Positions 24,775 through 52,601 of a stretch of 54,262 nt of DNA are shown one piece after another. The position numbers and the translations under genes were made by a program. The notes below the pieces were generated by a model. It was not told where the DNA came from. It ran no database searches and was given only the letters and a program-made list of their open reading frames with translations. Numbering within the stretch: position 1 is the stretch's first letter; each line of letters opens with the position of its first letter. The stretch lies in the IMG/VR virus record IMGVR_UViG_3300025010_001927, positions 1 through 54,262 of that record. One strand, written 5' to 3'. The DNA is from a virus.

Positions 24775-24775
24775 G

Positions 24776-25072: not shown

Positions 25073-26962
25073 TTATGCTTGGAGCATTTTTCCTAAACCT
25101 GGAATTTTGCCAATAAGCTCACGTATTTTGTTTTTATTGGCAACTGGTGATGAACTACCCGCTTCGGGCGGTAAACTGTCGTCAGAAGGCGCTACAGGGG
25201 CTACGGGCTCCCCATTTGATGGGGTTATGATTGTTTCTTCTTGCTTTTGCATTAATTCAGGACCAAGTAGGATATCGACATACTGATCAAGGTCTAGCTC
25301 CTCTAAAATCATTTTCTGGAGGGCTCGCTTGCGAATCAACCAGTGTTTTACATCTGCTGGGTTGTTTTGATCAGGCTTGTCTTGGGCGATGAGTTTATCA
25401 TACAAGAGTAGTATTTGATTAAGTCTGGCTTGTTTATCCGGTGGGATTACGGGTTCTACTTCGACAATAGCATCAACCTGAATCTTCTTGTCTTCAGACT
25501 TAAATTCTTTGAAGTCGACAATGTTGCCAACAATGCGGTACAGCTTGTCTTCACCGATAAACTCTCTGTTTAACTGAATTAGGATATTAGCAACCGTAGT
25601 AAGGGCATTGGATATGTTCTGGGCGTTCATGCTTAATCTAAGGTTGCTCTGACCCAAAAGCATTGCCACTTTCCCAAGAGGTTCGCTTGAGGATTGTGGT
25701 AACCCTTGCAAATACTCACCGAGGGCAAGCGTTCTGGAAATTTCATCACGCAGAAGTCTGTCCTCATTAACACCCATAAGGCTAATATCCGGCGGTCGCT
25801 CAATCACCACATCATCCATTTTTCTGAGTTCCCAAACTGCTCCAGGGGAGAAAATGATATCGTTTTTGGTAATGCCAGTATCCTTACGAATCTTAACCAC
25901 GGGATCGAGCATTAAGATCACGTCGTCCATACGTTGGTTGCGAAGATCAGCAATTTCCATGATGGTACTCTCAACTGGTTCAACATGACCGGTAGCCCAA
26001 AACTCCCACAGCAATGACATGTCAGGAAGGTCTACAAAAATATGGCCGTTATTAACATCAAGATAAGGATTCTCGTCATCCCTGATGACCACCTCACCAT
26101 TGGCAATAACTATCAGTTGATCTTCTTCATAGTCCCAACATTCCCAAAGTTCAAGCTGCTTTTCCTGGTCGTTTTTGACTGGGAGTACTTTTTGTTCGCC
26201 AGTCTCGGCTTTTCTGATATCACCATCAATTTGAGACATCTTTTTGGTATTGATTTCGTAGCGTTCTTTCTTCCAGTCTTCAACTATCTTCGGCTCGCAA
26301 AACTCAAGATTTTTATAAATTTTGTTGTCGCCTCGATTTTCTTCCTCTTTGGAGATTTTTTCTTTTGCCTTGACGATTCTATGAATAAGCCAAGGGCAGC
26401 CATCCTGCAAGTCCTCTGTCTCAGGAGCTGGGAGAAAGTCCCACAAATCACAAAGGATCATGGTGGGGTCGTCATAAATAGTCTTAACTGTTCCATCAGA
26501 TCTTTTTCGGTTTATTACCTTCCAGGCTAGTTTTGCAATTCCATTGCCATACAAAACTGAAGATTCAATCCAATTGGGCAGTTTTCTGGCTAGTTCTATG
26601 ATGTCAAAGTCATAATTAACCAGGTCGCTCCAGGATCCCAGAGCAGTTGACTCAATATCTGTTTTATCCCTCGGGATGACACGAGTCTTTCGTTTAGCTG
26701 TGGCAAGGCGGGAAACTACAGTCTTAACGATCTCGAATGCAATAGGAGGCATTAAGCGAGTGTTGTACGCATAGTTTTGTTTGTGTTGGTACGCTCGGTA
26801 GAGACGATACATCCGTAGCCACTTAGCTTGATAAGGCTCACGAAACTCTTTTGCACGCTTAAAACGAGCTTTCCACTTGGTTAGGAGCTCCGTATCACGC
26901 TCTGAAGGTTGATACCTAACTGTTGATGTGATTTTTACTTCTTTTACTTCTGGTTTTGGCAT
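25073..26962 (-). CDS. phage portal protein
   Basis: Starting at the first ATG (26962; an upstream frame begins with TTG) gives 629 residues. Recognisable portal traits: an N-terminal helical region 'WKARFKRAKEFREPYQAKWLRMYRLYRAYQHK', the 'RLMPPIAFEIVKTVVSRLATAKRKTRVIPRD' wing segment, 'VLYGNGIAKLAWKVI', the long helix 'ADLRNQRMDDVILMLDPVVKIRKD', and an acidic, Pro-rich C terminus. Length and layout fit P22-like or T7-like portals; the dodecamer forms the DNA gate. It has no Shine-Dalgarno site; the ATG lies just beyond the T run of the leader hairpin at 26978-27047. It is separated from TerL and capsid genes by cargo. Confidence 0.8.
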   Translation of the reverse strand: MPKPEVKEVKITSTVRYQPSERDTELLTKWKARFKRAKEFREPYQAKWLRMYRLYRAYQHKQNYAYNTRLMPPIAFEIVKTVVSRLATAKRKTRVIPRDKTDIESTALGSWSDLVNYDFDIIELARKLPNWIESSVLYGNGIAKLAWKVINRKRSDGTVKTIYDDPTMILCDLWDFLPAPETEDLQDGCPWLIHRIVKAKEKISKEEENRGDNKIYKNLEFCEPKIVEDWKKERYEINTKKMSQIDGDIRKAETGEQKVLPVKNDQEKQLELWECWDYEEDQLIVIANGEVVIRDDENPYLDVNNGHIFVDLPDMSLLWEFWATGHVEPVESTIMEIADLRNQRMDDVILMLDPVVKIRKDTGITKNDIIFSPGAVWELRKMDDVVIERPPDISLMGVNEDRLLRDEISRTLALGEYLQGLPQSSSEPLGKVAMLLGQSNLRLSMNAQNISNALTTVANILIQLNREFIGEDKLYRIVGNIVDFKEFKSEDKKIQVDAIVEVEPVIPPDKQARLNQILLLYDKLIAQDKPDQNNPADVKHWLIRKRALQKMILEELDLDQYVDILLGPELMQKQEETIITPSNGEPVAPVAPSDDSLPPEAGSSSPVANKNKIRELIGKIPGLGKMLQA

Positions 26963-26977
26963 ACTGGTTTTAGGCAA

Positions 26978-27047
26978 CAAAAATGGGGCTTAGGTTCGTC
27001 TACTTCTGGAAAATAGAGAAACCTAAGCCCCGATAGATTCGTTAGGC
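26978..27047 (-). promoter_or_regulatory. conserved leader hairpin of the portal gene
   Basis: On the minus strand the element begins GCCTAACGAA, then a perfect 12-pair stem (26985-26996 with 27020-27031) around a 23-base loop, then five T. The segment from the inner stem through GTTAGGC (plus strand) matches 20 of 22 bases of the capsid-leader element at 18755-18831. The portal ATG is about 18 bases past the T run, so if this terminates transcription, the portal must be reached by read-through or antitermination. It could also simply end the restriction operon that lies upstream. Confidence 0.65.
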
Positions 27048-29546: not shown

Positions 29547-29563
29547 ATCTGCCTATTTAGCAG

Positions 29564-33540: not shown

Positions 33541-33545
33541 ATTTA

Positions 33546-34826
33546 TTATCTTTTATTATAAATGCTGAACTCATGAGTACCTAACACAAGTATCTTATTG
33601 ACTCTCATCTTCTTTGCGGTCTTGTCTGATAGGTTAAAGGCATGACCATTACCAATGGTATTAGTAGCAAGAGAGAAGGGGCTTTTGCCTAGATTAATCT
33701 GGTATGCAATTGTATCCATAAAAGCTACTTTTCCTATTAAAAATCCGTTCACAACTTCAAATGCCACAAAGTAGTGATTATTTCCTTGTTTAATTCTTTC
33801 AGAAACGAAGTTGTTATTTATTACGCTAACAAAGTTTTTAGCATCCCCGGTTCCTTCTTTTATGAAGTCACATACAGGCTTTAATTCTTCTGAATAAATG
33901 GTTGAAAGAAAGCCACTTGCATTGGCACAATATACGAAATACTCGAAAACTACTTTTGCGACAAAGCGAGCAGTTTTAATATCTACGTTTTGCTGTGCAA
34001 TAAAGCTTGATTTAATTTGTTTTGATTCTTCGTTGACTGTTTCGTCACTAAAATTCGCCTTTAAAGCTAATGCTGTCATTGCTGCTTCAACAATCTTTAC
34101 AGAATCATCTCTGTCACCAACCCATTCTGCAGTTTCAGCTCCTTCTCTAAAAGGCTTGATTTTGTATTTCAACTTATTAATTTCATTTTTGGATGTTATA
34201 GAAGCTACTTCTTCAGCGAAGACAAAGGCATAAAGATCGCCCTTCTTTAATAATAGGAGTGGGTCTTTAGTTGACCCAATTTTTTCAAGTACGCTTTTTA
34301 CTAGCAAAAATAATGGATCGAACGTAATTGTTTCATCGGAAGAAAAATGGAATTTTAAGAGACTAGAGTCGTATAAAATAACAGAGCTTTGCTTATCTTT
34401 CTTTCTTCTTAGATGGAGTCTTGCAATTAAGCCCTCAAAGCTTTTCTCTGCAAAGTGTTTTTCAATTGATTTGCCCAGGATCTCATTGCAGTTATCACAC
34501 ACTACATCACCCAGAAAGTAGATGTCTGGCTGAAAATTGCCCATGAATTGACTCAGCACATGAGCTTTTCTCTTAAAAGAGTCAGGCTCCTGATTATTAC
34601 AGTAAATACATCTCGGACTTTGCTTTGTCATAATCGTTTTTTTGCTGTCCAAAATAGCTCTAATGGCCTCAGGGTCGTAACGCCTATCACCACGATCACT
34701 TACCCTAATTGCTTTTAATTTTCCACTTGTATCCCAACGCCTTAATGTCTCGACATGGACATTTAATATTTCCGCCGCTTGGCGAATAGTTAAAAGTTTT
34801 GGTAGGCTATCTTTCTTGTTTGGCAT
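33546..34826 (-). CDS. HTH (MerR/excisionase-like) plus HNH-endonuclease-like protein
   Basis: 426 residues. Residues ~10-60 form a MerR/excisionase-like helix-turn-helix: 'LTIRQAAEILNVHVETLRRWDTSGKLKAIRVSDRGDRRYDPEAI'. Residues ~70-135 resemble HNH_5: 'SPRCIYCNNQEPDSFKRKAHVLSQFMGN' and 'VVCDNCNEILGKSI', giving two CxxC zinc pairs and His near 90. The remaining ~290 residues are unrecognised. HNH proteins nick or cut DNA. The gene sits immediately upstream of Mod (five-base gap), so it could be a controller, a nuclease add-on or an inactive scaffold. A TATAAT at 34838-34843 on the minus strand is about 12 bases from the start codon, so the mRNA would be nearly leaderless. Confidence 0.65.
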   Translation of the reverse strand: MPNKKDSLPKLLTIRQAAEILNVHVETLRRWDTSGKLKAIRVSDRGDRRYDPEAIRAILDSKKTIMTKQSPRCIYCNNQEPDSFKRKAHVLSQFMGNFQPDIYFLGDVVCDNCNEILGKSIEKHFAEKSFEGLIARLHLRRKKDKQSSVILYDSSLLKFHFSSDETITFDPLFLLVKSVLEKIGSTKDPLLLLKKGDLYAFVFAEEVASITSKNEINKLKYKIKPFREGAETAEWVGDRDDSVKIVEAAMTALALKANFSDETVNEESKQIKSSFIAQQNVDIKTARFVAKVVFEYFVYCANASGFLSTIYSEELKPVCDFIKEGTGDAKNFVSVINNNFVSERIKQGNNHYFVAFEVVNGFLIGKVAFMDTIAYQINLGKSPFSLATNTIGNGHAFNLSDKTAKKMRVNKILVLGTHEFSIYNKR

Positions 34827-34837
34827 ACCTCAACTTA

Positions 34838-34870
34838 ATTATACAAAAATAAAGCCTAAATTGGTATACT
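34838..34870. promoter_or_regulatory. divergent promoters of the HNH/RM operon and the DUF4365 gene
   Basis: Minus strand: TATAAT (complement of 34838-34843) ends about 12 bases before the ATG at 34826. Plus strand: an extended -10, TGGTATACT (34862-34870), ends 13 bases before the ATG at 34884. Both transcripts would have very short leaders. No operator palindrome was identified in the 57-base gap. Confidence 0.5.
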
Positions 34871-34883
34871 AGCAATGTAGTTT

Positions 34884-36551
34884 ATGAAACAAATCCCATC
34901 ACATAGCCAAAATGACTTTACTGACAAAGAATCAGTTAGTTTGATAGAAAACACCTTAGCTCACCACAAAAGGGTGATGTCAAAACTATATTCAAGTGAT
35001 AAGTGGCCTAATATTGATGGGCATATTGAAGTTCAAGATGTTAATAACATCCTAGTGGGGCGTTCATATGTACAGGTGAAGACACTTCCTGTTAATCACA
35101 ACTTAAAGTTTGCATGTCCGGTATCTTTTTTTTCAAGCTGCGAGTTAGAACCATGTTTTTTGTTTGGTGTCGATAATCAAAATGGGAGAGTCTATTGGCT
35201 TTATTTCGATGCTCACGTTATAAAAGAAATTGACTTTGAAGATAATACATCTACAAAAACGATTGAGTTTAACGAATCACAATACTTTGACAAGAATAAA
35301 ACAGATTATGTTGAGGCTTGGGAAAAAATCATCAAGGACAATCAACAAAAATTCAAACACTACAACGAGCTCAAGACTTCATATGAGCTGATTCTCAGCA
35401 GTTCTAATAGAGCTATAGGGAAAACTGATAAGAACTTTTCTAAGATTCATCTATTTCTTGATGAACTCAATAACAAATTAGACCACCAATTTCAAATAGT
35501 AAAAGACATCTTTTATCCAAGAACCTGGAAAATAGGACTTGCTTACTACGATTATGAAGGCACCACGGTTAGTTATACTCCATTTCCCATTCCCATCGAT
35601 CAAAATGACGTTCAAATAAAAGAAGTTGACAACACTTTGCGAGATAAATTGAAGCAACAAGGCCTTGGGTTTACTGGACACTTTGCTGAAAACCCTATTG
35701 AGGTTAGGCCAAGAGAATATGCGAAAGAAATTATAGGTTCAAAAATGACATCTATCTTGGAGAGGCAACTTCTAAACCACAAAGGGCACGAGTTGTTGGC
35801 TCAAGAAACTGTGTTTAACTTCATTAATAGTTACCACGACTACTTAGATTTACCTAAAAAAGACTCTTACTCTGTCGAAGAAGTAAAAAGTAGCAATGAA
35901 TTAATGCGGATGAAAAACACTTCCTTGTTATCTATAAATGCAAGGCACATCAATCTAAGTATTTTTTGGGAACTCTTAAATTTCTTGGAATCAAAACAAC
36001 TGCCAATCAGTAGAGTGTATAGGGCAAAAGATTTTTCAAGGATTCCCAATGGTGGCTGGGTTTGGGATGTTTTCTCAAAACCAGATACGGAACATAACTT
36101 AAATATTGTTTTTGATAATCTTCCTTCGGCTTATGAACAGCTCATCTTTAATAACTTCCCTTTGCTTAAAGAAGAGTTTTCACTCTTTCAAGAAGCAGAC
36201 AAAATCCTCGTTCGCTACAAGCTTAAAGAAAGGTACACGGATTACGGCTCAGGACCTACTTATGAAATGTTTTACCTCAAGGCAGATAGTGGTGCTTCAC
36301 AAAAATCAATTGAAGTAATAGGAGATAGTGAGGCAGATGTACTTAACAAGTTATTTTATAGTGGTGGACCTTACAAATTTGAATATAAGGGTATCCAATA
36401 CACCTTACTTTCAGTACATCACAGCGTCCTAGATTTTATTTACGACGATACGCCATTATTCAAGTTAGTGTACGAAATACTCCTTCAAAGAGTTAAACAG
36501 TATTTTGAAAAAAGTAAGCAAGAACAGTCTATGGAGATTGCTAAACCTTAG
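34884..36551 (+). CDS. DUF4365 PD-(D/E)XK nuclease-like protein, long form
   Basis: The first ~120 of 555 residues match DUF4365: 'ESVSLIENTLAHHKRVMSKLYSSDKWPNIDGHIEV' (conserved Asp) and 'SYVQVKTLPV' (Q-V-K catalytic strand), a restriction-endonuclease-like fold. The rest is helical plus beta with no known motif; it includes a repeat-like 'FYPRTWKIGLAYYDYEGTTVSYTPFP' and a large C-terminal part. Stand-alone DUF4365 proteins are common in defence islands. It diverges from the RM operon. It may be a separate restriction-like factor; activity is inferred. Confidence 0.7.
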   Translation: MKQIPSHSQNDFTDKESVSLIENTLAHHKRVMSKLYSSDKWPNIDGHIEVQDVNNILVGRSYVQVKTLPVNHNLKFACPVSFFSSCELEPCFLFGVDNQNGRVYWLYFDAHVIKEIDFEDNTSTKTIEFNESQYFDKNKTDYVEAWEKIIKDNQQKFKHYNELKTSYELILSSSNRAIGKTDKNFSKIHLFLDELNNKLDHQFQIVKDIFYPRTWKIGLAYYDYEGTTVSYTPFPIPIDQNDVQIKEVDNTLRDKLKQQGLGFTGHFAENPIEVRPREYAKEIIGSKMTSILERQLLNHKGHELLAQETVFNFINSYHDYLDLPKKDSYSVEEVKSSNELMRMKNTSLLSINARHINLSIFWELLNFLESKQLPISRVYRAKDFSRIPNGGWVWDVFSKPDTEHNLNIVFDNLPSAYEQLIFNNFPLLKEEFSLFQEADKILVRYKLKERYTDYGSGPTYEMFYLKADSGASQKSIEVIGDSEADVLNKLFYSGGPYKFEYKGIQYTLLSVHHSVLDFIYDDTPLFKLVYEILLQRVKQYFEKSKQEQSMEIAKP

Positions 36552-36558
36552 GTTGTTT

Positions 36559-37119
36559 TTACTCAAAGCTTATTGTGGACAGTATCTGCTCAGTAATCAC
36601 TTTGTTTTCTTCAGTAGGTGGCCATGTCGAGAAAGAGAGGGGTTTACCGTCTTTAATGACAAGAACTTGGTATCTAGTCTTAGGACCAATAACAAGCCCT
36701 TCAAAGCCCACGTAATCGCCTACGGTGGCTTCTTTGATGGTGCCTGGGTCTGTATCTTTCTTTACTTGTTCTAATCCTTGTTCTGTCATTTCGTTGTCGG
36801 CTTGATAAAGGCTATAAAGTTGGTAAGTCGGTTCATCCTCAGGCCCTGATTCTATATAAAAATTGATAAACCGATCATTTGCTATGTCTTGCCTAAATCT
36901 CATTCCTTCAGGCACAGTCACATAAAGTCCGACAGGTGCTATAAACTTCTCGTTTTGTTTAAGTGATCTGCCTGGAGTTGCCTCTGGTGTTGGAGTAGTC
37001 TGAACTTGTTCTGGTATAGGCGCCGCCGATTTAATGGCCGCTTGCCTTTGGGAATATATCCATATACCTGATATGACGATCACGGCGAGAGCAATAAGTG
37101 TTATTGGTTTTAGTTTCAT
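36559..37119 (-). CDS. membrane-anchored extracytoplasmic protein, unknown
   Basis: The ATG at 37119 gives 186 residues: an N-terminal hydrophobic helix at ~4-20 ('ITLIALAVIVISGIWIYSQ') that anchors or leads export, a Pro/Thr-rich spacer (TTPTPEATPG), then a ~130-residue beta-rich domain ('VGLYVTVPEGMRFRQD', 'DYVGFEGLVIGPKTRYQVLVIKDGKPL'). No Cys. A longer frame to 37242 overlaps the upstream gene and would remove the clean membrane start. It is last in the leftward envelope cargo and converges on DUF4365. No family recognised. Confidence 0.55.
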   Translation of the reverse strand: MKLKPITLIALAVIVISGIWIYSQRQAAIKSAAPIPEQVQTTPTPEATPGRSLKQNEKFIAPVGLYVTVPEGMRFRQDIANDRFINFYIESGPEDEPTYQLYSLYQADNEMTEQGLEQVKKDTDPGTIKEATVGDYVGFEGLVIGPKTRYQVLVIKDGKPLSFSTWPPTEENKVITEQILSTISFE

Positions 37120-37123
37120 ATTC

Positions 37124-37639
37124 TTATTTTTCAGGTCTTTGACTTGGTCCACCGCGTCCACTTGGCATAAATAGGTAGTTATAAGCGGTGAAATCGTTGG
37201 CGAATTTAGCTTTGTTGAGCAAGGTATCCGCAATTTCTTCATCAGTCATTTGGTAGTTCAAGTAGTAATGACTGTTTATGTCGATAGTATTGTTACCAAC
37301 TTTGATTGAATCTTCTTGGCCAGATGTAGTGTCTTTAGTTGTCTCCAAGAGTTTGTTGAGCTTTGCTTCGCTATCTATAAATCCATAGTAGTAAAGGTTA
37401 CCCACTATGCCTTGGACTGTTGTTGTCTTGCTTACTCGTAAGTCAACGCCGTTTACAGCCATTTCCTCGGCTTCAGCGGGGCTTACACGCATATGTTCTA
37501 TAAAGTAAGCCTCTACGGTCTTACGTTGTTCTGGTGGAAGATAATTTTCAGGGTAGGGGTTGCGATTCTTTAGGTAAAAATAACTTCCGGCGAGCAGTAG
37601 GAGGATGGTTATTGTGATTACTATCATTGTTCTTCTCAT
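37124..37639 (-). CDS. membrane-anchored extracytoplasmic protein, possibly MltG-like N domain
   Basis: From ATG 37639 there are 171 residues: one N-terminal helix ('MIVITITILLLLAGSYFYL'), then a helical/mixed domain of ~140 with a segment 'VQGIVGNLYYYGFIDSEAKLNKLLETT' that recalls the substrate-binding region upstream of MltG catalytic domains, though no catalytic Glu motif follows. It ends four bases before the 186-residue gene start. On the minus strand TAGACT, a 17-base spacer and TATATT precede it and serve as the likely promoter. Confidence 0.5.
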   Translation of the reverse strand: MRRTMIVITITILLLLAGSYFYLKNRNPYPENYLPPEQRKTVEAYFIEHMRVSPAEAEEMAVNGVDLRVSKTTTVQGIVGNLYYYGFIDSEAKLNKLLETTKDTTSGQEDSIKVGNNTIDINSHYYLNYQMTDEEIADTLLNKAKFANDFTAYNYLFMPSGRGGPSQRPEK

Positions 37640-37731
37640 GGCTGTATGAGCTAAATATATCAAATTTGAGTGCTATAGTCTAGTTTTTTCCTACTTATCT
37701 TATTTGTCTTACAAAACCTTTCAAGAACGAA

Positions 37732-37786: not shown

Positions 37787-38305
37787 CTAGTCGGCTATCT
37801 TCATTTCATCAAAGCCAATCTTGGATGTGCCATTGCATGGATTGTCATCCAACCAGACATTTCCAATGTTGTACCACCACGGATCGCTTGGATCTGTTCT
37901 TACCCAGGCATCATAGTATGAATTCTGGTTTATAGAAAAGTGATACTGGCTTGCTGTATTGTAGCTGAGCAAGTACGGAGCTGCCGTGTTAACCGCATTA
38001 GTCCCTGGAATATAGGTATCATGCGTAGCCCAACCATTTGGACCAGCACCGTTATTCCATTTGGCATAATTACTTAGCGAACATCCAGAGTAGGTATACT
38101 TCATGTGTGTTGGACTACAACTTCCACTGTCATAACAGTAACCTTCATTGTTCACCTGGTACCAGTACTGACCTGGACCATATGCCGTATAGTAGCCTCC
38201 ATCGTTTGCGTAGATAGTGACTGCAGCGTGGGCAGCTTGTGCTCCTGTTGTCATCATGAAGACTCCAACAAGTAACCCGAATAGCATTTTTGATAGTTTT
38301 TTCAT
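37787..38305 (-). CDS. secreted Tyr/Asn/Gly-rich protein
   Basis: From the ATG at 38305 (AGAAAGGAGGTGA just upstream) the product has 172 residues: a classic signal peptide ending 'AQAAHA', then a mature region of ~140 rich in Tyr, Asn, Trp and Gly, with four Cys ('YCYDSGSC', 'SGCSL', 'DNPCNG') that could pair. Composition suggests an extracellular beta-rich fold. It has no membrane helix after the signal peptide. It follows the PepSY-like secreted protein with a 37-base gap and shares its ribosome site pattern. No family recognised. A surface or exclusion function is a guess. Confidence 0.6.
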   Translation of the reverse strand: MKKLSKMLFGLLVGVFMMTTGAQAAHAAVTIYANDGGYYTAYGPGQYWYQVNNEGYCYDSGSCSPTHMKYTYSGCSLSNYAKWNNGAGPNGWATHDTYIPGTNAVNTAAPYLLSYNTASQYHFSINQNSYYDAWVRTDPSDPWWYNIGNVWLDDNPCNGTSKIGFDEMKIAD

Positions 38306-38342: not shown

Positions 38343-39083
38343 TTACAATCCCAGCGTATTTGTATAGCTGAGAAGATCGCCTCCGACAGTAAATCCTACC
38401 TGTACGAATGGCTTGGTACTATCTACTTCTCTTGATCCATCTACGAATCTGAAGAAATAGTTTGTTCCGCCTTTTTCACCAGTACTTGCAGTTAATTTGC
38501 TGAGATCAGCATTTGGTGCATTCTTGGCGATGAACTCTCTGGCTTTTGCTTCCAATTGCTCAGGAGTAAACTTTGCTTCGGTGTTATACACCTTGGCAGC
38601 TTCTCCGATTGCCAATGGAGCTGGTCCGAATTGAACGATTTCATTCGTTCGCATATCAACCTCGAAGTAGTCTTTGCCTACCATGTAGAATTCAGCATTA
38701 ACTTGGTTGTTATAGCTTGATCTAGAAGTAGAGACGTACTCAGGATTGAGACCGTCATTACCAGTAAAAGCTCGGATTTTTGCGACTGCAGCTGATCTCT
38801 CTGATGCTGGACGAGCCAGAGATTCTTCCTTCGCGTTGGAAGCCTGTCTGTGTAAGTCCACTAATTGCTTAGCGGAATCACCAGTAAAGACTTTTTCACC
38901 GTCGTGAACTCCGTCACTGACGTTGCCAGCGTTAATGGCAGCTTCTGTCTTGGTCTTCAAGCTCTCGGTAAGGGCATCGAGACTTGGGCCAGACTGTGCA
39001 GAAACAGCAGTTACTAATCCTGCTAATGCTACGACTGCAGCGAATGCAGGTAGCACGATTTTGGCTTGATTTTTGATTTTCAT
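38343..39083 (-). CDS. secreted paralogue of the anti-sigma ectodomain (PepSY-like)
   Basis: From ATG 39083 (AAAGGAGGTGA site) the product has 246 residues with a signal peptide ending 'VSA'. Mature residues ~85-240 show the same pattern as the extracytoplasmic part of the anti-sigma protein (40337-41266): 'AVAKIRAFTG' versus 'AVAAIRDFMD', 'TNEIVQFG' versus 'TNQIVEMA', 'AREFIAKNAP' versus 'AREFIANHQI', then 'NYFFRFVDG' versus 'NYFLTWRGN'. This looks like the PepSY/YcdB-type domain. No Cys; no membrane anchor after the signal peptide. The promoter at 39240-39268 and a repressor-type operator at 39201-39228 lie upstream. Confidence 0.65.
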   Translation of the reverse strand: MKIKNQAKIVLPAFAAVVALAGLVTAVSAQSGPSLDALTESLKTKTEAAINAGNVSDGVHDGEKVFTGDSAKQLVDLHRQASNAKEESLARPASERSAAVAKIRAFTGNDGLNPEYVSTSRSSYNNQVNAEFYMVGKDYFEVDMRTNEIVQFGPAPLAIGEAAKVYNTEAKFTPEQLEAKAREFIAKNAPNADLSKLTASTGEKGGTNYFFRFVDGSREVDSTKPFVQVGFTVGGDLLSYTNTLGL

Positions 39084-39122
39084 TTTTTTCACCTCCTTTC
39101 TATTGTGTTTTAATTAATAAAT

Positions 39123-39153
39123 AACCCAGCGATAATTATTAATAAGCTGGGTT
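39123..39153. terminator. hairpin between MltG and the secreted-protein genes
   Basis: AACCCAGC (39123-39130) and GCTGGGTT (39146-39153) are perfect inverted repeats. It is followed by TTTTC on the plus strand and by ATTTATT on the minus strand, so it is a weak terminator either way or a leader structure of the secreted-protein transcript, which must cross it. Confidence 0.5.
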
Positions 39154-39200
39154 TTCAGGGAAAATAAATGAGATAGATTGAAGCGAGTTGGTGGGTATTG

Positions 39201-39228
39201 AGTAAGAGTTATCTTATTATTCTTACTT
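39201..39228. promoter_or_regulatory. GTAAGA-N4-TCTTAY operator downstream of the secreted-protein promoter
   Basis: GTAAGA-GTTA-TCTTAT (39202-39217) plus an added half-site TCTTACTT (39221-39228). The same GTAAGA-N4-TCTTAC palindrome occurs at the repressor gene (50360-50375) and at the integrase (52582-52601). The site lies just past the promoter at 39240-39268, in the minus direction, where a bound repressor would block elongation or initiation. Confidence 0.6.
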
Positions 39229-39239
39229 CTCATACATCA

Positions 39240-39268
39240 ATGATTGCAGAACATTTTGAGAATGTCAA
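39240..39268 (-). promoter_or_regulatory. promoter of the secreted-protein genes
   Basis: Minus strand: TTGACA (39263-39268), a 17-base spacer and AATCAT (39240-39245). The start of transcription would be near 39233, about 150 bases upstream of the PepSY-like start. The -35 box is perfect. The operator sits immediately downstream. Confidence 0.6.
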
Positions 39269-39313
39269 GTCCTGTTTATTAGTGGTGATTACTGGGCTTA
39301 TTACTCGAGGAGA

Positions 39314-40282
39314 TTAGCGAAGATACTGGTCAATATTTAGTTCGTGTTCTGCAAAGGATTCACTACAGTGGATGATTCCTTCTGAGTCGTGGAGATAGTA
39401 GATACAATCTGTCGCTTCTGGGTTCAAGACCGCCTCAATAGCGTCCATACCTGGGTTAGAGATTGGGTGAGGAGGCAATCCTTTGTTGAGATATGTATTA
39501 AAGGGTGACTCTATGCTCCTAGTGTCGCTTCCTTTAATAGGTGACCACCAGTCGTTTTCAGTTTTTCCTCTTGCGTATTGCACCGTGGCATCAATTTCCA
39601 GTTGTTTGTTTTGATCAAGTCTATTCCATAGTATTCCAGCAATTAGTGGCATATCATGGGGTCCTGCTGCCTCACGTTGGATAATTGAGGCAAGAGTGAG
39701 TGCGGTGGTCCATTTAATGTTCTTTGCGGTGAATTCCTCTGGGTAGCCGGCGAACCGTTCGTTGAAACGATTTATCATTCGCTTAGCCGTATCTAGTCCG
39801 TTTTCGTCAGTTGGTATTAGGTATGTGTCTGGAAAATATACTCCTTCTCTGTAGTCGTATTGCATCGCTGTGTAGGTGGTGTTCCACTTTTCGAGTTCCT
39901 CATTACTCCAGTGAAGTTCTTTTGCCAAACGCTCGCCAATTTCTTCTTTTCTGAGTCCTTCTGGGATAGTGATCCATTTGAGCTGTGGCTCAGAGGTTAG
40001 GACGATTACGAGTTCCCGGGCATTCATGCTCTGGGAGATTCTATATCCGCCTGGTTCAATTGAGCCGAAGCGGAGGGTCATTATGCGTGCTAAGGGTAAG
40101 GCCCAGGGGAATCGAAGATACTTGCTGTCGCTAAGCCGTTTGGTTGTTTGCTCCTGGTTTGTTCGACTAATGGTAAAAATTGCTGGACCTGCTTCATTTT
40201 TCGGTGCACTTGTGATGAAAAGTGCCGAAGCAAGAAGTATCGTTGCTACGGCTATTGTTGCAAAAATCTTTATGTTTTTCAT
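39314..40282 (-). CDS. mltG: MltG/YceG-like endolytic transglycosylase
   Basis: 322 residues: a signal-anchor at ~5-25, then the MltG fold with the 'EGLRKEEIGERLAKEL' LysM-like segment, 'EGVYFPDTYLIP', the catalytic region 'LASIIQREAAGPHDMPLIAGILWNRL' (Glu in QREAA), 'IDATVQYA', 'ESPFNTYLNKGLPPHPISNPGMDAIEAVLNP' and 'HCSESFAEHELN'. MltG cuts nascent glycan strands to end them. It is full length and has the expected catalytic Glu. It lies after the anti-sigma gene with a 54-base gap. Housekeeping MltG in cells is usually beside other genes; here it is prophage cargo or a captured copy. Confidence 0.9.
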   Translation of the reverse strand: MKNIKIFATIAVATILLASALFITSAPKNEAGPAIFTISRTNQEQTTKRLSDSKYLRFPWALPLARIMTLRFGSIEPGGYRISQSMNARELVIVLTSEPQLKWITIPEGLRKEEIGERLAKELHWSNEELEKWNTTYTAMQYDYREGVYFPDTYLIPTDENGLDTAKRMINRFNERFAGYPEEFTAKNIKWTTALTLASIIQREAAGPHDMPLIAGILWNRLDQNKQLEIDATVQYARGKTENDWWSPIKGSDTRSIESPFNTYLNKGLPPHPISNPGMDAIEAVLNPEATDCIYYLHDSEGIIHCSESFAEHELNIDQYLR

Positions 40283-40336
40283 AATTCACCCCAAGTATAC
40301 CGGGACTTTTAAGAATATCCAGTTTTCGCTTTTCAC

Positions 40337-41266
40337 CTATCGTTTAAGATGGTTTGAAAAGTGAACTATTTGGCCTCCTTGTGTCATTGTGAGAGTTAGC
40401 TGAGGAGTAAATGTTTCGCCATTTTCTTTTCTTGGGTTACCTCTCCAGGTAAGGAAATAATTTACATGACCTGATTCATCGTCCTTCGCTTCACTAACTA
40501 GGGTGAGTTTTTCTACCTCTATTTTTCCTAGGGCTATTTGGTGATTTGCTATAAATTCACGCGCCCGCTTTTCAGCCTCTGGTTGTGAGTAGCGTGGAGT
40601 ATAGTCATATTCTTTCTTAGGACTGGACCACCTAGAACCATCTTTATTTTCTCCCCAAGCGCCCTCTATAGCCGCCATCTCAACGATCTGATTTGTTTTT
40701 ATCTCGATTATGAATCGATCAAAATCTAAGGTGTAGGTTTCTATAAGTGGTTCCTCGTCTTGATTGTTTGGATTTCTAACAACGCATTCGTACTCAACAT
40801 TTGCATCTGGCCTATCCATAAAATCTCTTATGGCTGCTACTGCTTTTTCCTGTTCCTCTGGAGGTCTTGCGCTGACAGAACACCATTCTTGCTGAGTTTG
40901 CTTATACTTCTGAGTATTCTTGTCTCTGTAGGTTGGATCGTTGCTGAGCAGTTGTGTAAGCTCCTGTTGTAGTTGGTTTTTTAAGTTGATAAGTGCATCA
41001 ATAATGGATCCCTTAGCAAAAACAGGTGAGTTGTTGGTAAGGACTCCGACAAAGAAAACAAGTAAAACTACTGTCGCAAAAGCAAGAGGGAATCTAAAGG
41101 TCCAGAACGGTCTTGGGGCAGGAGTGAACGTTTTATCCAATTCAACCTCTAGTTCTTTTTCTTCTCTCACTCTCGCCAAGATTTGTTTTTCCAACATACT
41201 TATATGTTTGAATTCTTTTTTACTTTCCTGAAGGAAAAATGATCGAATAATGTTTCGTAATTTCAT
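40337..41266 (-). CDS. membrane anti-sigma factor with PepSY-like ectodomain
   Basis: 309 residues. Residues ~1-50 are a charged cytoplasmic domain ('KKEFKHISMLEKQILARVREEKELE') suited to bind sigma. One membrane helix at ~55-73 ('FRFPLAFATVVLLVFFVGVLT') follows. The outside part (~85-309) has 'VAAIRDFMD', 'IEIKTNQIVEM', 'YSQPEAEKRAREFIA' and 'VNYFLTWRGN', a PepSY-like layout shared with the secreted protein at 38343-39083. It overlaps the sigma gene by four bases (ATGA), the usual sigma/anti-sigma arrangement. The inhibitory role is inferred from that arrangement. No zinc-finger anti-sigma motif is seen. Confidence 0.7.
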   Translation of the reverse strand: MKLRNIIRSFFLQESKKEFKHISMLEKQILARVREEKELEVELDKTFTPAPRPFWTFRFPLAFATVVLLVFFVGVLTNNSPVFAKGSIIDALINLKNQLQQELTQLLSNDPTYRDKNTQKYKQTQQEWCSVSARPPEEQEKAVAAIRDFMDRPDANVEYECVVRNPNNQDEEPLIETYTLDFDRFIIEIKTNQIVEMAAIEGAWGENKDGSRWSSPKKEYDYTPRYSQPEAEKRAREFIANHQIALGKIEVEKLTLVSEAKDDESGHVNYFLTWRGNPRKENGETFTPQLTLTMTQGGQIVHFSNHLKR

Positions 41267-41766
41267 AGCAGTGATTCTTTAAGCTTAACTATCGCTCTGT
41301 AAAAGCGCATTTTAACGGCGGGCTCTTTTGAATCAAGAGCGGTTGCGATATCGTCAAAGGACATTTCTTCATTGACTCGCAGTCTGATAATTTCCTGCTC
41401 AGCCGGCTTAAGCTTTTTGAGTGCTGACGTTACTTTCTCAACATCTTCCTCATGGGTAATTTTTGCCTCCAACAATACTTCTACGTCGCTATCGTCAAAC
41501 AACTCAATATTATTTTGTTCGATCGAGAGAGTATTCTTATTGGATCTAAACATGTCTGTTATAACGTGTCTGCAGATAGTCAGGAGCCAACTTTTCAACT
41601 CGCCCTCACTGTTAAATTTGAAATTGTTGTATGCTTTCATAGCTTTTAAAAAGGTTTCTTGGACGGCATCATCGATGTCGTCTTGTTGGGACAAGGACTT
41701 TTTCGCAAAAAAATAAACTAGTCGGATGTAATCTCTGACTACATCTTCAAAAGGTGGTTTCATCAT
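41263..41766 (-). CDS. ECF-type sigma-70 family factor
   Basis: 167 residues. Region 2 appears as 'LVYFFAKKSLSQQDDIDDAVQETFLKAMKAYNNFKFNSEGELKSWLLTICRHVITDMFRS' (~17-75) and region 4 as 'VTSALKKLKPAEQEIIRLRVNEEMSFDDIATALDSKEPAVKMRFYRAIVKLKESL' (~112-165). No region 3 is present, so it is an extracytoplasmic-function sigma. It directs polymerase to a small promoter set and is held by the overlapping anti-sigma. It is the first gene of the leftward envelope cargo. Confidence 0.9.
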   Translation of the reverse strand: MMKPPFEDVVRDYIRLVYFFAKKSLSQQDDIDDAVQETFLKAMKAYNNFKFNSEGELKSWLLTICRHVITDMFRSNKNTLSIEQNNIELFDDSDVEVLLEAKITHEEDVEKVTSALKKLKPAEQEIIRLRVNEEMSFDDIATALDSKEPAVKMRFYRAIVKLKESLL

Positions 41767-41917
41767 TTTTTATTTGTCCTGTCCCACCCCTCTATAAAAG
41801 AGAACGGATGAGTTTTGGAAAAGTAACATTTTCGCTTTCTTACACAATTATAGCGAACTTCTTAGGGAAGAGGTTGAATATACTATAGTTCTATCAATGA
41901 ATTACGATAATAATATA

Positions 41918-41975: not shown

Positions 41976-42461
41976 ATGAAACGAAGTTCAACATTAATCT
42001 TAAAGGTCGTACTTTGCCTGATCGCGATCGGCACACTTGCCGGTATGCTTTGGTTTCCTCAGACGGAAGGAAGAGCTACTAACCTGGATCTGATCAGTAT
42101 CTATGCCGATCCGCTAATTATTTACACTTATATCGCTTCAATTCCATTTTTCATTGGCTTATACCAAGCATTCAAATTATTAAATCTCATTGATGCTAAT
42201 AAGGCCTTTTCCCAAGGTGCGGTGAACACGCTCAAGAATATGAAGTTTGCTTCCCTTAGCCTTATTGGTTTTATTGCATTAGCTTTGTTTTACATCCGTT
42301 TCTTTGCGCCGCTTGGTGTAGATGATGATCCGGCCGGTCCCACAATGCTTGGTCTTGTCGTGTCAATCGCATTCGGTGTGATTGCCACAGCCGCCGGTGT
42401 CTTTCAAAAGCTTCTCCAGAATGCTGTCGACATAAAATCAGAAAATGATCTAACGGTATGA
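41976..42461 (+). CDS. DUF2975 membrane protein (YoaS-like)
   Basis: 161 residues with four membrane helices: about 8-25, 44-67 ('PLIIYTYIASIPFFIGLYQAFKLL'), 90-110 and 125-150. Conserved features of DUF2975 include the 'FF.glyq..kLL..I...kaFs...v..Lk.mk' segment, here 'FFIGLYQAFKLLNLIDANKAFSQGAVNTLKNMK'. The gene is followed nine bases later by a YozG-like regulator, as in Firmicutes where the pair (YoaS-YozG) is common; function is unknown. A consensus promoter precedes it. Confidence 0.8.
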   Translation: MKRSSTLILKVVLCLIAIGTLAGMLWFPQTEGRATNLDLISIYADPLIIYTYIASIPFFIGLYQAFKLLNLIDANKAFSQGAVNTLKNMKFASLSLIGFIALALFYIRFFAPLGVDDDPAGPTMLGLVVSIAFGVIATAAGVFQKLLQNAVDIKSENDLTV

Positions 42462-42470
42462 GGTATTTTT

Positions 42471-42677
42471 ATGGCAATAATAATAAACATCGATGTCATG
42501 CTGGCAAAGCGGAAAATGAGTGTAACTGAACTTTCACAGAGGGTTGGTATTACTATGGCTAATCTTTCTATTTTAAAAAATGGCAGAGCAAAAGCGATTC
42601 GTTTTTCAACATTGGAGGCAATCTGTAAAGCCTTAGACTGTCAGCCTGGAGATATTCTGGAATATAAGGCTCACTAA
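42471..42677 (+). CDS. YozG-like Xre-family small HTH regulator
   Basis: 68 residues, one HTH_26-type domain over nearly all of it: 'VMLAKRKMSVTELSQRVGITMANLSILKNGRAKAIRFSTLEAICKALDCQPGDILEY'. It is the usual partner of DUF2975 proteins and probably controls the pair from the promoter at 41918-41946. It converges with, and overlaps by four bases, the small minus-strand gene at 42674-42835. Confidence 0.85.
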   Translation: MAIIINIDVMLAKRKMSVTELSQRVGITMANLSILKNGRAKAIRFSTLEAICKALDCQPGDILEYKAH

Positions 42678-43187: not shown

Positions 43188-43409
43188 TCAAAGCTCGACA
43201 TCACTTTGTTTCTTGGGTGTTTCTCCGGCACTACCGCCTTCTTTAGGATCGATTCTTTGCTGTTCGGTGATTTCTTTGCGATAAGGTTTACCGTTTTGTA
43301 TAAACACCTCAACCTTGCCAAATTTAACCACTCGGATATCTTCAATGATCTTGGCTTCTGCTGGTGTAACAGCTATTGTTGTGTCGGCTAGTTTATTTAT
43401 TTGGTTCAT
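43188..43409 (-). CDS. small protein following TerL, unknown
   Basis: 73 residues with a compact alpha/beta first half ('AEAKIIEDIRVVKFGKVEVFIQNGKPYRKEIT') and a disordered Gly/Lys/Glu tail. The 'KVEVFIQNGKPYRKE' strand pair recalls small phage proteins near terminases. It overlaps the TerL stop by 17 bases. No family assigned. Confidence 0.5.
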   Translation of the reverse strand: MNQINKLADTTIAVTPAEAKIIEDIRVVKFGKVEVFIQNGKPYRKEITEQQRIDPKEGGSAGETPKKQSDVEL

Positions 43410-44949
43410 ATTTCAGTCTTTTTCTCATGGCTATCTGCCAATAAATAAGTGATAGCCAGAAATCATTTGGTCCGGTGTTGGCCCACTCGCGCTTTGCCTG
43501 ACCGAACTTGTCGGTAACTGTTCTCGCATACATAGTCTGGGCATGGGTAATAAGGAGCTTAAAAGCTGGGTTGCTAGCTGGGACAGCAAACTTAATATCG
43601 CCCCTTCTTAGGGCTGATATTGTGTCATCCATGATTCGAGTGCGTGAGGAAAAAACCTTTACTTCGTCTTCGAAGGCCGTGTCTTTATTTTCTTTTTCAT
43701 CGAAGAAGCGGATAACCTCAAGCATTTTGGGGTCGTCTTTAAACCAGCTCAGATAAACTCTGTAAGGGAACTCTTTGGCTAAGTTAAATGCCTCCTCGGT
43801 ATAAGGTTGTCCGTCTATCACAATCGCCCTGACATCAAAAAACTTAATCAGGTCAGATGCTTGTTGCCATCGATCTTGTCCTTCGTGATCCTGGAGAATG
43901 CCAATCCAGAAGATCCCTTTCTTATTACCGATCATCACATGATTGCCTTTACCGGTTCCCATTCCGGTATCGATGCCCATTACGTTATATTCACCAGTGG
44001 TGTCGGCTTTTGTCTCGGTCACATTTCGAATAAAGAGGCTCGCTGGAATCTTCTGATCTGCAGCAAGGTATGGCAACCCCAGTACAAAGTTGAAAAAGTA
44101 GGTATCGTCATCTGCATCTTTTCGCTCCTGGATTAAATTGGCGGCAGTCTTCCATGGACAGTGCATTTGACTAATCCAGTATCCGGAGACGGGTCTGCCT
44201 GGGAAGCGAGCTTCCCAACTGCCATAGTCGTTTATGTGGTGGGGAGAGATTTCCTTTTTACATTGCTGGCAGACGTAAATACCTCGTTCTTCATCAACGC
44301 TTTTTCCCCATTCCATGTGTTGCCGAAAGCTGCAATGAAGACAGTTAAACCTCCAATGCTTCTGGTCGGATTGTTCAAATATTTTGTCTACACCGAAGTC
44401 AGGGGTAGTAGGGGTGGAGAAGAAATGCTGGCTTCTAATCTTGGAGTAACCCATACGCGAGGTGAAGTCTCTTACCACTTCTGGCTTTGATTTATCCAAC
44501 TCGTCATGAATGTTTCGATCAGAGGTCAACATGATGGCTTCTTTTTCAGTGTAGGTTCCCTTGAAAAAAAGAAAGGATTTACCGATTTGCTTTTGTTCTA
44601 TCGAATCAACATCTTTACCACTAACTCCTTCCAGGATACAGGGGTTTACCTTGATAAGACGGTTCACTTTGCTTTTAACAAATTCTGAAACGTCGTCTAC
44701 AGTCGGCAGAGTATAAATCTGATTAATGCCCCAAAACCTTGCTGCGTGTAAAGCTCGCAAGATTTCCATTGTGCTGGCTCCAATCTGCGATCCTTTGCGG
44801 ATTACCTGCACTAGAGACCAGTCGGAATAAATATCCAACATAAAGCGGTGATCTTTAAATTCGATTGGATCACCGTTTTCATTTTTAATCTTATTCTCTG
44901 TAATCCAGAACAAGATGCTATTTTTTTGTTGTATTTCGTTGTCTATCAT
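43393..44949 (-). CDS. terminase large subunit, GpA/lambda type
   Basis: From ATG 44949 the product has 518 residues. ATPase motifs: Walker A-like 'RKGSQIGAST' at ~51-60 and Walker B 'HDELDK' at ~148-153. A zinc-knuckle C203-x2-C206...C227-x2-C230 ('CLHCSF', 'CQQCKK') is diagnostic of the GpA family. The nuclease half has conserved Asp327 ('MGIDTGMG') and Asp379 ('IVIDGQPY'). It pumps and cuts DNA at the portal. The GpA type with an SU10-type capsid is an uncommon mix, suggesting module exchange. It overlaps the TerS-like gene by 32 bases. Confidence 0.85.
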   Translation of the reverse strand: MIDNEIQQKNSILFWITENKIKNENGDPIEFKDHRFMLDIYSDWSLVQVIRKGSQIGASTMEILRALHAARFWGINQIYTLPTVDDVSEFVKSKVNRLIKVNPCILEGVSGKDVDSIEQKQIGKSFLFFKGTYTEKEAIMLTSDRNIHDELDKSKPEVVRDFTSRMGYSKIRSQHFFSTPTTPDFGVDKIFEQSDQKHWRFNCLHCSFRQHMEWGKSVDEERGIYVCQQCKKEISPHHINDYGSWEARFPGRPVSGYWISQMHCPWKTAANLIQERKDADDDTYFFNFVLGLPYLAADQKIPASLFIRNVTETKADTTGEYNVMGIDTGMGTGKGNHVMIGNKKGIFWIGILQDHEGQDRWQQASDLIKFFDVRAIVIDGQPYTEEAFNLAKEFPYRVYLSWFKDDPKMLEVIRFFDEKENKDTAFEDEVKVFSSRTRIMDDTISALRRGDIKFAVPASNPAFKLLITHAQTMYARTVTDKFGQAKREWANTGPNDFWLSLIYWQIAMRKRLKYEPNK

Positions 44950-45502
44950 AGAAGTTCTTAATTGCCTGATCAATTTCTTTGCCTAAAGCTTGCTCCTCTA
45001 GAGTTGGTGGTTTTTGGTCTTCTTCGTTAATGGTGTGAGCTACCTCTGTTTTTCCGGTGGAAAGTCCTGATTCAGTCCGAAACATTTCCCAAGCTTTTTT
45101 GAAGTCATCTACTGTAATTGGACGTGACCTATTAACCTGAAATAATAAGTAGGTTCCAATCTTTTCGTATAAGCGTGAAACTTTGATTGCCCTTTGCTTT
45201 TCAGATCTTTGAAACTCCAGTGTCATTAACTCTTTTTTTTCCTCATCCCAAAGCTTGGATCTTTGAACCCAATGAAAGTTACTTGACCACTGAAATAATG
45301 TTTTTAGTGCTGGCCTTTTTCCTAATCTGAATCTTGAGTTCTGTTCCTCCAATTCCCGCCCCATTTCTGCCCACCTTTTGCTCACCTCCCGAATACTTCT
45401 TTTCAGCATGGAACAATATGCCAAAAATGCCGAGAACTGAGCCTCTGTTTCTCCCGGCATTTGCTCTATTAGAATTTGTGGTTTAGCCTGTTTTTTCTTC
45501 AT
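44918..45502 (-). CDS. probable terminase small subunit
   Basis: 194 residues, mostly helical and basic, with 'LIEQMPGETEAQFSAFLAYCSM...SIREVSKRWAEM' and 'LFQWSSNFHWVQRSKLWDEEKKE', similar to phage small terminases and 'phage DNA packaging' helpers in which the W-S-x-x-F-x-W segment follows a helix-turn-helix. Position immediately before TerL (overlapping) is the strongest evidence. TerS recognises the packaging start site. Confidence 0.65.
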   Translation of the reverse strand: MKKKQAKPQILIEQMPGETEAQFSAFLAYCSMLKRSIREVSKRWAEMGRELEEQNSRFRLGKRPALKTLFQWSSNFHWVQRSKLWDEEKKELMTLEFQRSEKQRAIKVSRLYEKIGTYLLFQVNRSRPITVDDFKKAWEMFRTESGLSTGKTEVAHTINEEDQKPPTLEEQALGKEIDQAIKNFYDRQRNTTKK

Positions 45503-50358: not shown

Positions 50359-50376
50359 AGTAAGAGTTTTCTTACA
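50359..50376. promoter_or_regulatory. GTAAGA-N4-TCTTAC operator in the CI/Cro divergent region
   Basis: GTAAGA-GTTT-TCTTAC is a perfect palindrome (50360-50375), just downstream of TATGAT (50352-50357), which with TTGTGT 18 bases upstream is the candidate CI promoter. Matching sites lie at 39202-39217 and 52584-52599. This is probably the CI-like protein's autoregulatory site. Confidence 0.7.
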
Positions 50377-50414: not shown

Positions 50415-50873
50415 ATGAAAAATACATCTGTAACTAAAACAACACTCCAGGGGCCAGACGACTTTACTACCGTTTGGGAGTATCTCAGCTCTGTTAGAGA
50501 AGCTAAGGGGTATACCATTCGTGTTGTTATCGACTTAATAAACCAAGCTATCTCTGAGGAAAAGCTGGAGCCTCAAGCTGCTATCTCACGCGGTTATCTC
50601 TCTAACTTAGAGTCAGGTAAATATCTTCATCCTTCTCCTTTTAAGCTCAAAGGATTGGCTGAGGCGTACAACATTCCTTACGAATTGTTGCTAAACAAGG
50701 CTGGGTATTTGGATAAAACAAGCAAAAAAATAAAAGAGGACGCTGCATTCACCTTAATGTTAAAAGAAGTCCAGGATATGACTGTTCGTGAAAGACAAAC
50801 TGTTCTGGATTACATCGAGTATGTGAAGTCCAGAAGAAATAAAAAATATGATAAAAGCCCAAAAAAGGGCTAG
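50415..50873 (+). CDS. CI-like phage repressor (Xre HTH)
   Basis: 152 residues. An Xre-like HTH covers ~18-98 with an insert: 'EYLSSVREAKGYTIRVVIDLINQAI...EPQAAISRGYLSNLESGKYLHPSPFKLKGLAEAYNIPYELLLNKAGY'. The C-terminal ~45 residues are helical ('LMLKEVQDMTVRERQTVLDYIEYVKSRRNKK') and lack the LexA-type Ser/Lys protease, so induction would be through the adjacent ImmA-like gene, which it overlaps by 26 bases. A palindromic operator lies in its promoter. Confidence 0.8.
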   Translation: MKNTSVTKTTLQGPDDFTTVWEYLSSVREAKGYTIRVVIDLINQAISEEKLEPQAAISRGYLSNLESGKYLHPSPFKLKGLAEAYNIPYELLLNKAGYLDKTSKKIKEDAAFTLMLKEVQDMTVRERQTVLDYIEYVKSRRNKKYDKSPKKG

Positions 50874-51300
50874 GCAGGTTTTACGAAAGTATAACCTGAC
50901 TACTGCCCCAATTAATTTACAGACAATTATTGATGGTGAGGGGTTGATCCTTGACGAGTGGTCATTTCATGGAAGAGTAAAGGAAGTCTATTTAGGAGAC
51001 AGTATCGGAATAAATAAAAATGAGGATCCCCAAAAACGGCGCGAGTTAATTGCACATGCTTTAGGACACCATTTTTTACATCAGGGGAATCATCTTTACT
51101 TTGAACGTCGGGACCAATTTACAGCCTTTAAGCAAGAGCACGAAGCTCAATGTTTTGCAGCAGAACTTCTCATGCTAAACAAGGAACTCAAAAAAGTTAA
51201 GCATCTTACGATTGCAGAGATCGCCGACTTCTTTTCTGTTCCAGAGGATTTTACTCAGTATGGAATGAGTGTTGTTTTAAAGGGGGGCTTATGCCACTAG
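50848..51300 (+). CDS. ImmA/IrrE-like protein with altered metallopeptidase motif
   Basis: 150 residues of the COG2856 type: 'RQVLRKYNLTTAPINLQTIIDGEGLIL', 'GINKNEDPQKRRELIAHALGHHFLH', 'EAQCFAAELLM'. In ImmA the zinc motif is HExxH; here it reads H70-A71-L-G-H74, so the general-base Glu is Ala while both His and Glu99 remain. ImmA proteases cleave CI-type repressors to induce prophages. This copy may bind zinc without cutting, or use another residue. It overlaps the CI-like gene, as in ICEBs1-like elements. Confidence 0.8.
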   Translation: MIKAQKRARQVLRKYNLTTAPINLQTIIDGEGLILDEWSFHGRVKEVYLGDSIGINKNEDPQKRRELIAHALGHHFLHQGNHLYFERRDQFTAFKQEHEAQCFAAELLMLNKELKKVKHLTIAEIADFFSVPEDFTQYGMSVVLKGGLCH

Positions 51301-52341: not shown

Positions 52342-52587
52342 ATGACAGAAATTGCTGCTCAAAAACCAACAAATGACGATAACAACCTGATACTTGCAAA
52401 CTCTTTAATTACAAGGGAAGAATTGGACGAGTTTAAGGCAATTGCTTTAAAAGAGCATGGTGTTGAGCTAACTGACGAAGAAGCATTTGAACAAGCAACC
52501 GCTCTTCTGCGGCTTTTCGATGTCTTACTAGAAAAAAGACTTGCAACCAGGCGAAACAGAGTTAACATCAACACAACCCAGAAGTAA
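52342..52587 (+). CDS. small acidic protein before the integrase, possible directionality factor
   Basis: 81 residues, helical and acidic: 'SLITREELDEFKAIALKEHGVELTDEEAFEQATALLRLFDVLLEKR', then a basic tail. The 'eF+.i...e.G..lt.eEA.e.A..Ll.l+..l' pattern is also common in short proteins beside conjugative elements and integrases. No recognisable winged helix. It shares its promoter-leader with the Cro-like gene and its stop overlaps the operator at 52582-52601. An excisionase-like (RDF) role is possible. Confidence 0.55.
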   Translation: MTEIAAQKPTNDDNNLILANSLITREELDEFKAIALKEHGVELTDEEAFEQATALLRLFDVLLEKRLATRRNRVNINTTQK

Positions 52588-52601
52588 GAATAATCTTACT
52601 T
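52582..52601. promoter_or_regulatory. 20-base perfect palindromic operator upstream of the integrase
   Basis: AAGTAAGA-ATAA-TCTTACTT lies 16 bases before the integrase ATG and over the stop of the preceding gene. It has the same GTAAGA-N4-TCTTAC core as the sites at 50360 and 39202. Repressor bound here would shut off the integrase in the lysogen. Confidence 0.75.

Follow-up and report, generated by a model that had tools for sequence, protein, structure and literature searches.

The window analysed here is the IMG/VR virus record IMGVR_UViG_3300025010_001927, a stretch of 54,262 bases with the hallmarks of a phage: an SU10-type portal and capsid, a terminase large subunit (TerL), a serine recombinase and an immunity pair resembling ImmR/ImmA. 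The slot between TerL and portal encodes an extracytoplasmic function (ECF) sigma factor, a membrane anti-sigma factor, a transglycosylase of the MltG type and a secreted homologue of the anti-sigma outer domain, with a golvesin-like protein and two small proteins behind them (Table 1). A preliminary description had placed the sigma, anti-sigma, MltG and secreted genes correctly and had read them as a possible phage-borne signalling system, in which the secreted protein would be a released copy of the sensor domain under a phage-type operator.

Table 1. Features of the window that bear on the TerL-portal slot and its control.
Feature	Position	Strand	Remarks
Portal protein	25073..26980	-	SU10_portal 3.5e-6, slightly below curated cut-off; one slot border
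tm227, small putative membrane/exported protein	36559..37119	-	syntenic, all sigma loci
tm179, small putative membrane/exported protein	37124..37663	-	syntenic, all sigma loci
Secreted golvesin-like protein	37787..38305	-	always accompanies the secreted PepSY-like protein; in all sigma loci
Secreted PepSY-like protein	38343..39083	-	signal peptide, two PepSY-like repeats
Terminator-like hairpin	39123..39153	-	between secreted-gene promoter and start; stem kept, few substitutions, 12/12 leaders
Immunity-type operator at secreted gene	39202..39217	.	one mismatch; conserved in relatives
Sigma-70-like promoter of secreted gene	39240..39268	-	TTGACA-N17-AATCAT; TTGACA in 12/12 upstream regions
MltG-type endolytic transglycosylase paralogue	39314..40282	-	TIGR00247, PF02618; optional
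Membrane anti-sigma factor, 309 aa	40337..41266	-	one transmembrane segment near residues 60-78
PepSY-like ectodomain of anti-sigma factor	40346..40870	-	about residues 133-307; homologous to secreted protein
ECF sigma factor, 167 aa	41263..41766	-	Pfam regions 2 and 4; own clade
Candidate autoregulated ECF promoter	41798..41831	-	AAATGTTACTTTT-N10/11-CCGTTNACTT; near-invariant upstream of sigma, 11 loci aligned
TerL	43393..44973	-	phrog_675 7.8e-88; other slot border
Immunity operator	50360..50375	.	exact GTAAG-N6-CTTAC, between divergent XRE genes
ImmR-like XRE repressor (50415-50873) and ImmA-like M78 peptidase (50848-51300)	50415..51300	+	HTH_19 1.1e-8; Peptidase_M78 6e-13
Same operator at serine recombinase promoter	52584..52599	.	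exact GTAAG-N6-CTTAC

The sigma factor contains only regions 2 and 4 of the sigma-70 family, the architecture that defines the ECF group (Pfam Sigma70_r2 3.1e-16, r4_2 1.9e-9; TIGR02937 93 bits vs a cut-off of 42.9). Phage copies score 303-309 bits and the next best protein in 374 Microgenomatia genomes 86 bits, which sets them apart as a clade of their own. The sigma and anti-sigma genes share 4 bp in the window, as had been noted, and in every other phage compared. The anti-sigma product has the layout expected of a membrane anti-sigma factor, with a cytoplasmic N-terminus, a single hydrophobic segment (residues ~60-78) that is helical in the model, and an ectodomain. The candidate promoter in front of the sigma gene, also written TGTTACTTTT-N10/11-CCGTT, is ECF-like in layout. 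A matrix search returned a single strong match per phage locus, and in five host genomes the exact pattern occurred only upstream of the phage sigma gene, once each in 4 genomes. This candidate promoter is most naturally read as autoregulated. A second site at 33720 is weaker, lies inside a gene and was rejected.

BLASTP aligns the secreted protein with the anti-sigma ectodomain over 176 residues at 30% identity (E=3e-16), and profile-profile comparison with HHalign covers 158 columns at 99.6% probability (E=6.5e-24), well beyond chance. The likeness first noticed as a shared series of short blocks is therefore true homology. AlphaFold models built from phage sequences give both proteins the same topology of two repeats, each a helix followed by four strands. 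The secreted-protein model (predicted local distance difference test, pLDDT, 79) finds its best PDB match in 5BOI, the C-terminal domain of YpeB (E 3.8e-3, prob 1.00, TM about 0.4), and DUF4901 (YcdB/YcdC repeat), which Pfam matches below threshold (E 0.0065, 17 bits vs a cut-off of 27), also points to a PepSY-like fold. No PepSY-clan profile scored above its cut-off, and a viral structure library gave no convincing match. We use the name PepSY-like, and not PepSY, because the sequence match is sub-threshold, the PDB match is moderate and the anti-sigma model is unmatched.

A tree of 42 PepSY-like domains, with some long branches and unsure details, places the ten anti-sigma ectodomains in a single group (97/98), on the same side as tethered relatives, which are membrane-tethered proteins of sigma-less phages and of islands with recombinase and terminase small subunit (TerS) genes, often encoded behind MltG. 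The secreted proteins lie across a 100/99 split and group with chromosomal pairs of secreted and golvesin-like proteins. Because of this split, the secreted protein is a distant homologue of the sensor and no recent released copy of it, contrary to what had been proposed.

Relatives of the locus came from eight scans, seven of them viral and one of genomes, and with the window there are ten distinct sigma phages: the window, L003/4, L005, L007, L012, L013/L017, L015/L020, L016, L018 and L019. All ten share the gene order 3' of TerL of sigma, anti-sigma, optional MltG, secreted PepSY-like, golvesin-like, tm179 and tm227. The portal comes next wherever no further cargo is interposed; its position is conserved in L005, L007, L018 and L019, and in the window extra cargo at 27135-36551 intervenes. 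The module is thus a conserved phage-borne unit of the TerL-portal slot and not an ordinary locus of the chromosome without phage linkage. An additional partial sigma locus was found in L037/G154. Four of the ten sigma phages are integrated or binned in metagenome-assembled genomes: L018 and L019 are chromosomal integrants in Daviesbacteria and Gottesmanbacteria, L020 is part of a Shapirobacteria contig, and the contig with L017, 9 kb long, was binned as Nomurabacteria. The phages are temperate, and from these placements their hosts are mainly Microgenomatia, within the Patescibacteria or candidate phyla radiation (CPR). A tblastn search of the secreted protein against 50,697 records of named phages gave zero matches, and PHROGs holds no family for the secreted protein, the anti-sigma factor or MltG.

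The identity of MltG between the two homologous genes was borne out in the window (TIGR00247 136 bits vs a cut-off of 103.4; PF02618 1.8e-63). The set of sigma, anti-sigma and secreted genes is conserved across the ten sigma phages, but MltG is missing from five distinct phages (L005, L007, L012, L018 and L019) and was rejected as an obligate part of the module. The golvesin-like partner takes its name from Golvesin_C (PF25275), detected in 3/8 homologues (best E 2.1e-4); the window member itself is without a match. PADLOC returned no defence model for the secreted, anti-sigma or golvesin-like proteins.

The start of the secreted gene is ATG 39083, as first described, and is set by the Shine-Dalgarno sequence AAAGGAGGTG, within which the alternative GTG 39092 falls. 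Upstream, the 12 loci share a promoter of the form TTGACA-N17-(AATCAT/GATACT-like), a dyad GTAAG-N6-CTTAC ~20 bases downstream of it (3' of the -10 element in the window) and a hairpin directly before the Shine-Dalgarno sequence. The dyad is the phage-type operator of the preliminary description, and it is real: the promoters of the recombinase and of the secreted gene both carry it, as does the immunity switch. Exact copies in the window number 2, at the immunity region and the recombinase promoter, vs 0.07 expected, a count reached in 0/100 shuffles. L003/G724 has three exact copies, at the secreted gene, immunity region and recombinase, with no others in 60 kb; in L005 the immunity and secreted-gene operators are identical, and in L019 and L020 both carry the same half-site variant CTTAT. 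The immunity region itself has the organization of an ImmR/ImmA module, in which the XRE gene overlaps the M78 peptidase gene with the operator at 50360 in front. As the operator is common to the three sites and half-site variants are matched, the secreted cassette very probably belongs to the predicted regulon of the immunity repressor, and from the operator position we infer that it would be repressed during lysogeny. In the sigma-less phage G042 the dyad of the secreted promoter is altered (GTAGG..CCCAC), and no matching immunity region was located within 20 kb upstream.

The succession of promoter, operator and terminator-like hairpin at 39093-39260 of the window may constitute an attenuated leader. 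A small open reading frame here (MRSK..., 39-46 aa), uninterrupted in every sigma locus checked, was considered as a leaderless leader peptide and rejected: its substitutions are spread evenly over the three codon positions (474/422/472) and carry no coding signal, for which reason we read the leader as non-coding operator and hairpin.

Relatives without sigma fill the same slot with related genes. G031 and L111 carry a thermonuclease together with MltG and a PepSY-like protein, either tethered or secreted, and G042 carries a secreted/golvesin pair plus a tethered or secreted PepSY-like protein. In three sigma-less members of the lineage (L071, L072, L111) the secreted thermonuclease-like protein (~330 aa, judged by eye) stands behind the PepSY-like protein. 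Islands with a serine recombinase are another setting for tethered PepSY-like proteins. A PepSY-like gene is present on the recombinase islands L074 (G061) and L077 (G048). Two further islands, L073 (G344) and L079 (G342), combine a serine recombinase, a TerS homologue (about 32-34%), MltG and an adjoining PepSY-like gene, with no capsid or portal in the stretch read; their gene content suggests Microgenomatia phage satellites that carry TerS. Wall modules of PepSY-like proteins and MltG are thus recurrent cargo of Microgenomatia phages and satellite-like islands.

To relate the parts of the slot to one another, we compared protein distances over the ten sigma phages, which are related and among which linked recombination is possible. 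The cytoplasmic part of the anti-sigma factor tracks sigma (r=0.90), and the ectodomain tracks the secreted protein (r=0.72) as well as the neighbours of the secreted protein; the ectodomain-secreted association persists after removal of TerL and sigma (partial Mantel r=0.69). The secreted and golvesin-like proteins recombine as a unit (r=0.98). In L016 the parentage of the cassette switches at the cassette promoter and MltG just upstream retains the other parentage, so one-piece transfer of ectodomain and cassette is not clear in this phage, even with ecto-N nearer to the cassette-donor phages (84% vs 70-77%). Covariation and L016 fit a functional match of sensor and cassette, but the ten genomes are related and linked recombination may contribute, so we make no firm claim.

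The same data allow a rival account, possible though rather unlikely in our judgement, in which the slot holds two unrelated cargo units: an immunity-controlled cassette for wall change or exclusion of rival phages, and an independent sigma/anti-sigma pair. The cassette does move alone, with its breakpoint in L016 at its own promoter; the two units have separate promoters, and G115 has two secreted PepSY-like/golvesin-like pairs on a chromosome with no phage genes nearby. Against this account, the cassette is present in every sigma locus, and ectodomain and cassette covary.

Unlikely, too, is the soluble-decoy model, which follows the preliminary description in having the secreted protein compete with the ectodomain for one ligand, or bind the sensor, so that the immunity state of the phage tunes sigma in the same cell or in neighbours. 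True homology with the same predicted topology, the immunity operator on the secreted gene, covariation beyond the phage backbone and the presence of a secreted paralogue in every sigma locus with a visible slot all favour it. Yet the two domains occupy ancient separate branches and the secreted one is no copy of this sensor, the secreted/golvesin pair exists without sigma (G042, G115), and, seen from the window, the ectodomains of phages with near and with far secreted types lie at about the same distance (0.34-0.38). That sigma drives the late structural genes with the anti-sigma factor as lysogeny brake is very improbable: the module does occupy the late strand, flanked by terminase and portal, and phages are known to encode sigma factors that serve phage genes (PMC9429907), but the promoter motif occurs at sigma only, opposite-strand cargo separates portal and capsid in the window, and the same lineage includes sigma-less phages (G031, G042, L111).

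The best-supported reading, to which we give roughly even chances, is that the phage carries an autoregulated sensor of the envelope and, next to it, a secreted cassette that acts on the wall and is under immunity control. In its favour are the constant slot of the module in ten phages, the covariation of sigma with the cytoplasmic part of the anti-sigma factor, the ECF-like motif at sigma alone, the operator common to immunity, recombinase and secreted genes, and YpeB as best PDB match. The cytoplasmic part of the anti-sigma factor would hold the ECF sigma factor at the membrane, and the PepSY-like outer domain would sense a factor of the envelope. The likeliest factor is an enzyme that cuts the wall, or the products of that enzyme, with an MltG-like transglycosylase as the best guess for the enzyme. 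This guess derives from the adjacency of PepSY-like and MltG genes, which recalls YpeB-SleB, and from the sensing of a wall hydrolase by RsiV; PepSY-like genes also directly adjoin MltG in sigma-less phages and islands. On signal the anti-sigma factor would be removed, presumably by intramembrane proteolysis, and the freed sigma factor would transcribe its own operon of sigma, anti-sigma and, where present, MltG, possibly with read-through into the secreted cassette. Independently, the immunity repressor would control the secreted PepSY-like and golvesin-like pair through the separate sigma-70-type promoter, together with the immunity and recombinase genes. Once immunity is lifted, by infection or induction, the pair would probably act on the wall or on a wall enzyme, and might secondarily buffer the sensor; it is possible that the secreted homologue binds the target of the sensor and so damps it.

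Several observations weigh against the envelope-sensor reading. The anti-sigma factor contains no anti-sigma domain recognised by Pfam (e.g. zinc anti-sigma) and only an NCBIfam antisigma match far below cut-off (0.027), and none of the known anti-sigma sensor families in Pfam, such as that of RsiV, matches its ectodomain. A PDB search with the full-length anti-sigma model gave no match, and the match of the secreted protein to YpeB is moderate (E 3.8e-3, TM 0.4). About half of the sigma phages are without MltG, which therefore cannot be the sole ligand. Strict and matrix searches for a wider sigma regulon found none beyond the sigma promoter. A more specific circuit is quite improbable: the immunity repressor would release an extracellular PepSY-like protein able to bind the anti-sigma ectodomain or to share its ligand, and the state of lysogeny would thereby set the envelope-stress threshold of the prophage in the same cell or in neighbours. 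If the envelope-sensor reading is true, viruses of uncultured, ultra-small and little-known bacteria carry a conserved transmembrane sensor tied to the lysogeny switch both physically and through a shared operator, and the reading of host envelope state by a prophage becomes testable.

Elsewhere in the window, TerS (44918-45502) is 31-68% (mostly 31-57%) identical to its relatives vs 72-98% for the adjacent TerL, and the ParB-methyltransferase is, like TerL, far better conserved than the adjoining TerS; packaging-hijacking satellites have perhaps driven this diversification. Between p60 and sigma, on the opposite strand (41976-42677, +), lie a DUF2975 protein and a small XRE regulator that are not at this place in relatives; L076 (G115) has a homologue of the former (59%) close to the secreted/golvesin pair. 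The plus-strand segment 18869-23128, between the portal and capsid regions, encodes a PadR-like regulator, an ArsC-like phosphatase, a P-type ATPase and DsrE-like and PAP2-like proteins, and the same place in G001 holds other cargo (metal and transport genes). Defence-type cargo comprises a Type III restriction-modification pair (29564-33540) and an LA2681-like HEPN protein (23191-24828). At the record end an opposite-strand tRNA-Gly (54163-54237) overlaps the 3'-terminal part of the serine recombinase gene (52617-54248), an overlap that may mark the attachment site.

A literature search of open-licence papers turned up no account of the design of this phage module. Its components recall several known systems. 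Modules of the ImmR/ImmA type, as in ICEBs1, pair an XRE repressor gene with an overlapping M78 metalloprotease gene and have a recombinase nearby, whereas in the window the operator also sits on the distant promoter of the secreted cassette. SigV-RsiV of Bacillus subtilis likewise consists of an ECF sigma factor and a one-pass membrane anti-sigma factor with its outer domain as sensor, which in RsiV binds lysozyme, a wall hydrolase (PMC5014341); the outer domain described here is PepSY-like and unmatched to known sensor families, and the pair is borne by phages of CPR bacteria beside an immunity-controlled secreted homologue. YpeB, the partner of the lytic transglycosylase SleB in the spore cortex lytic system (PMC6660665, PMC13393411), shares the putative PepSY-type fold of the present domains (best PDB match 5BOI) and the tie of a PepSY protein to a lytic transglycosylase. 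In the present phages, by contrast, there are no spores, the transglycosylase is MltG and optional, and the domain occurs in two forms, as the outer part of an anti-sigma factor and as a secreted protein of its own. Sigma factors carried by phages, sporulation-like and other, have been described (PMC9429907), but the one described here is of the ECF type, comes with its own membrane anti-sigma sensor and is conserved across a phage lineage.

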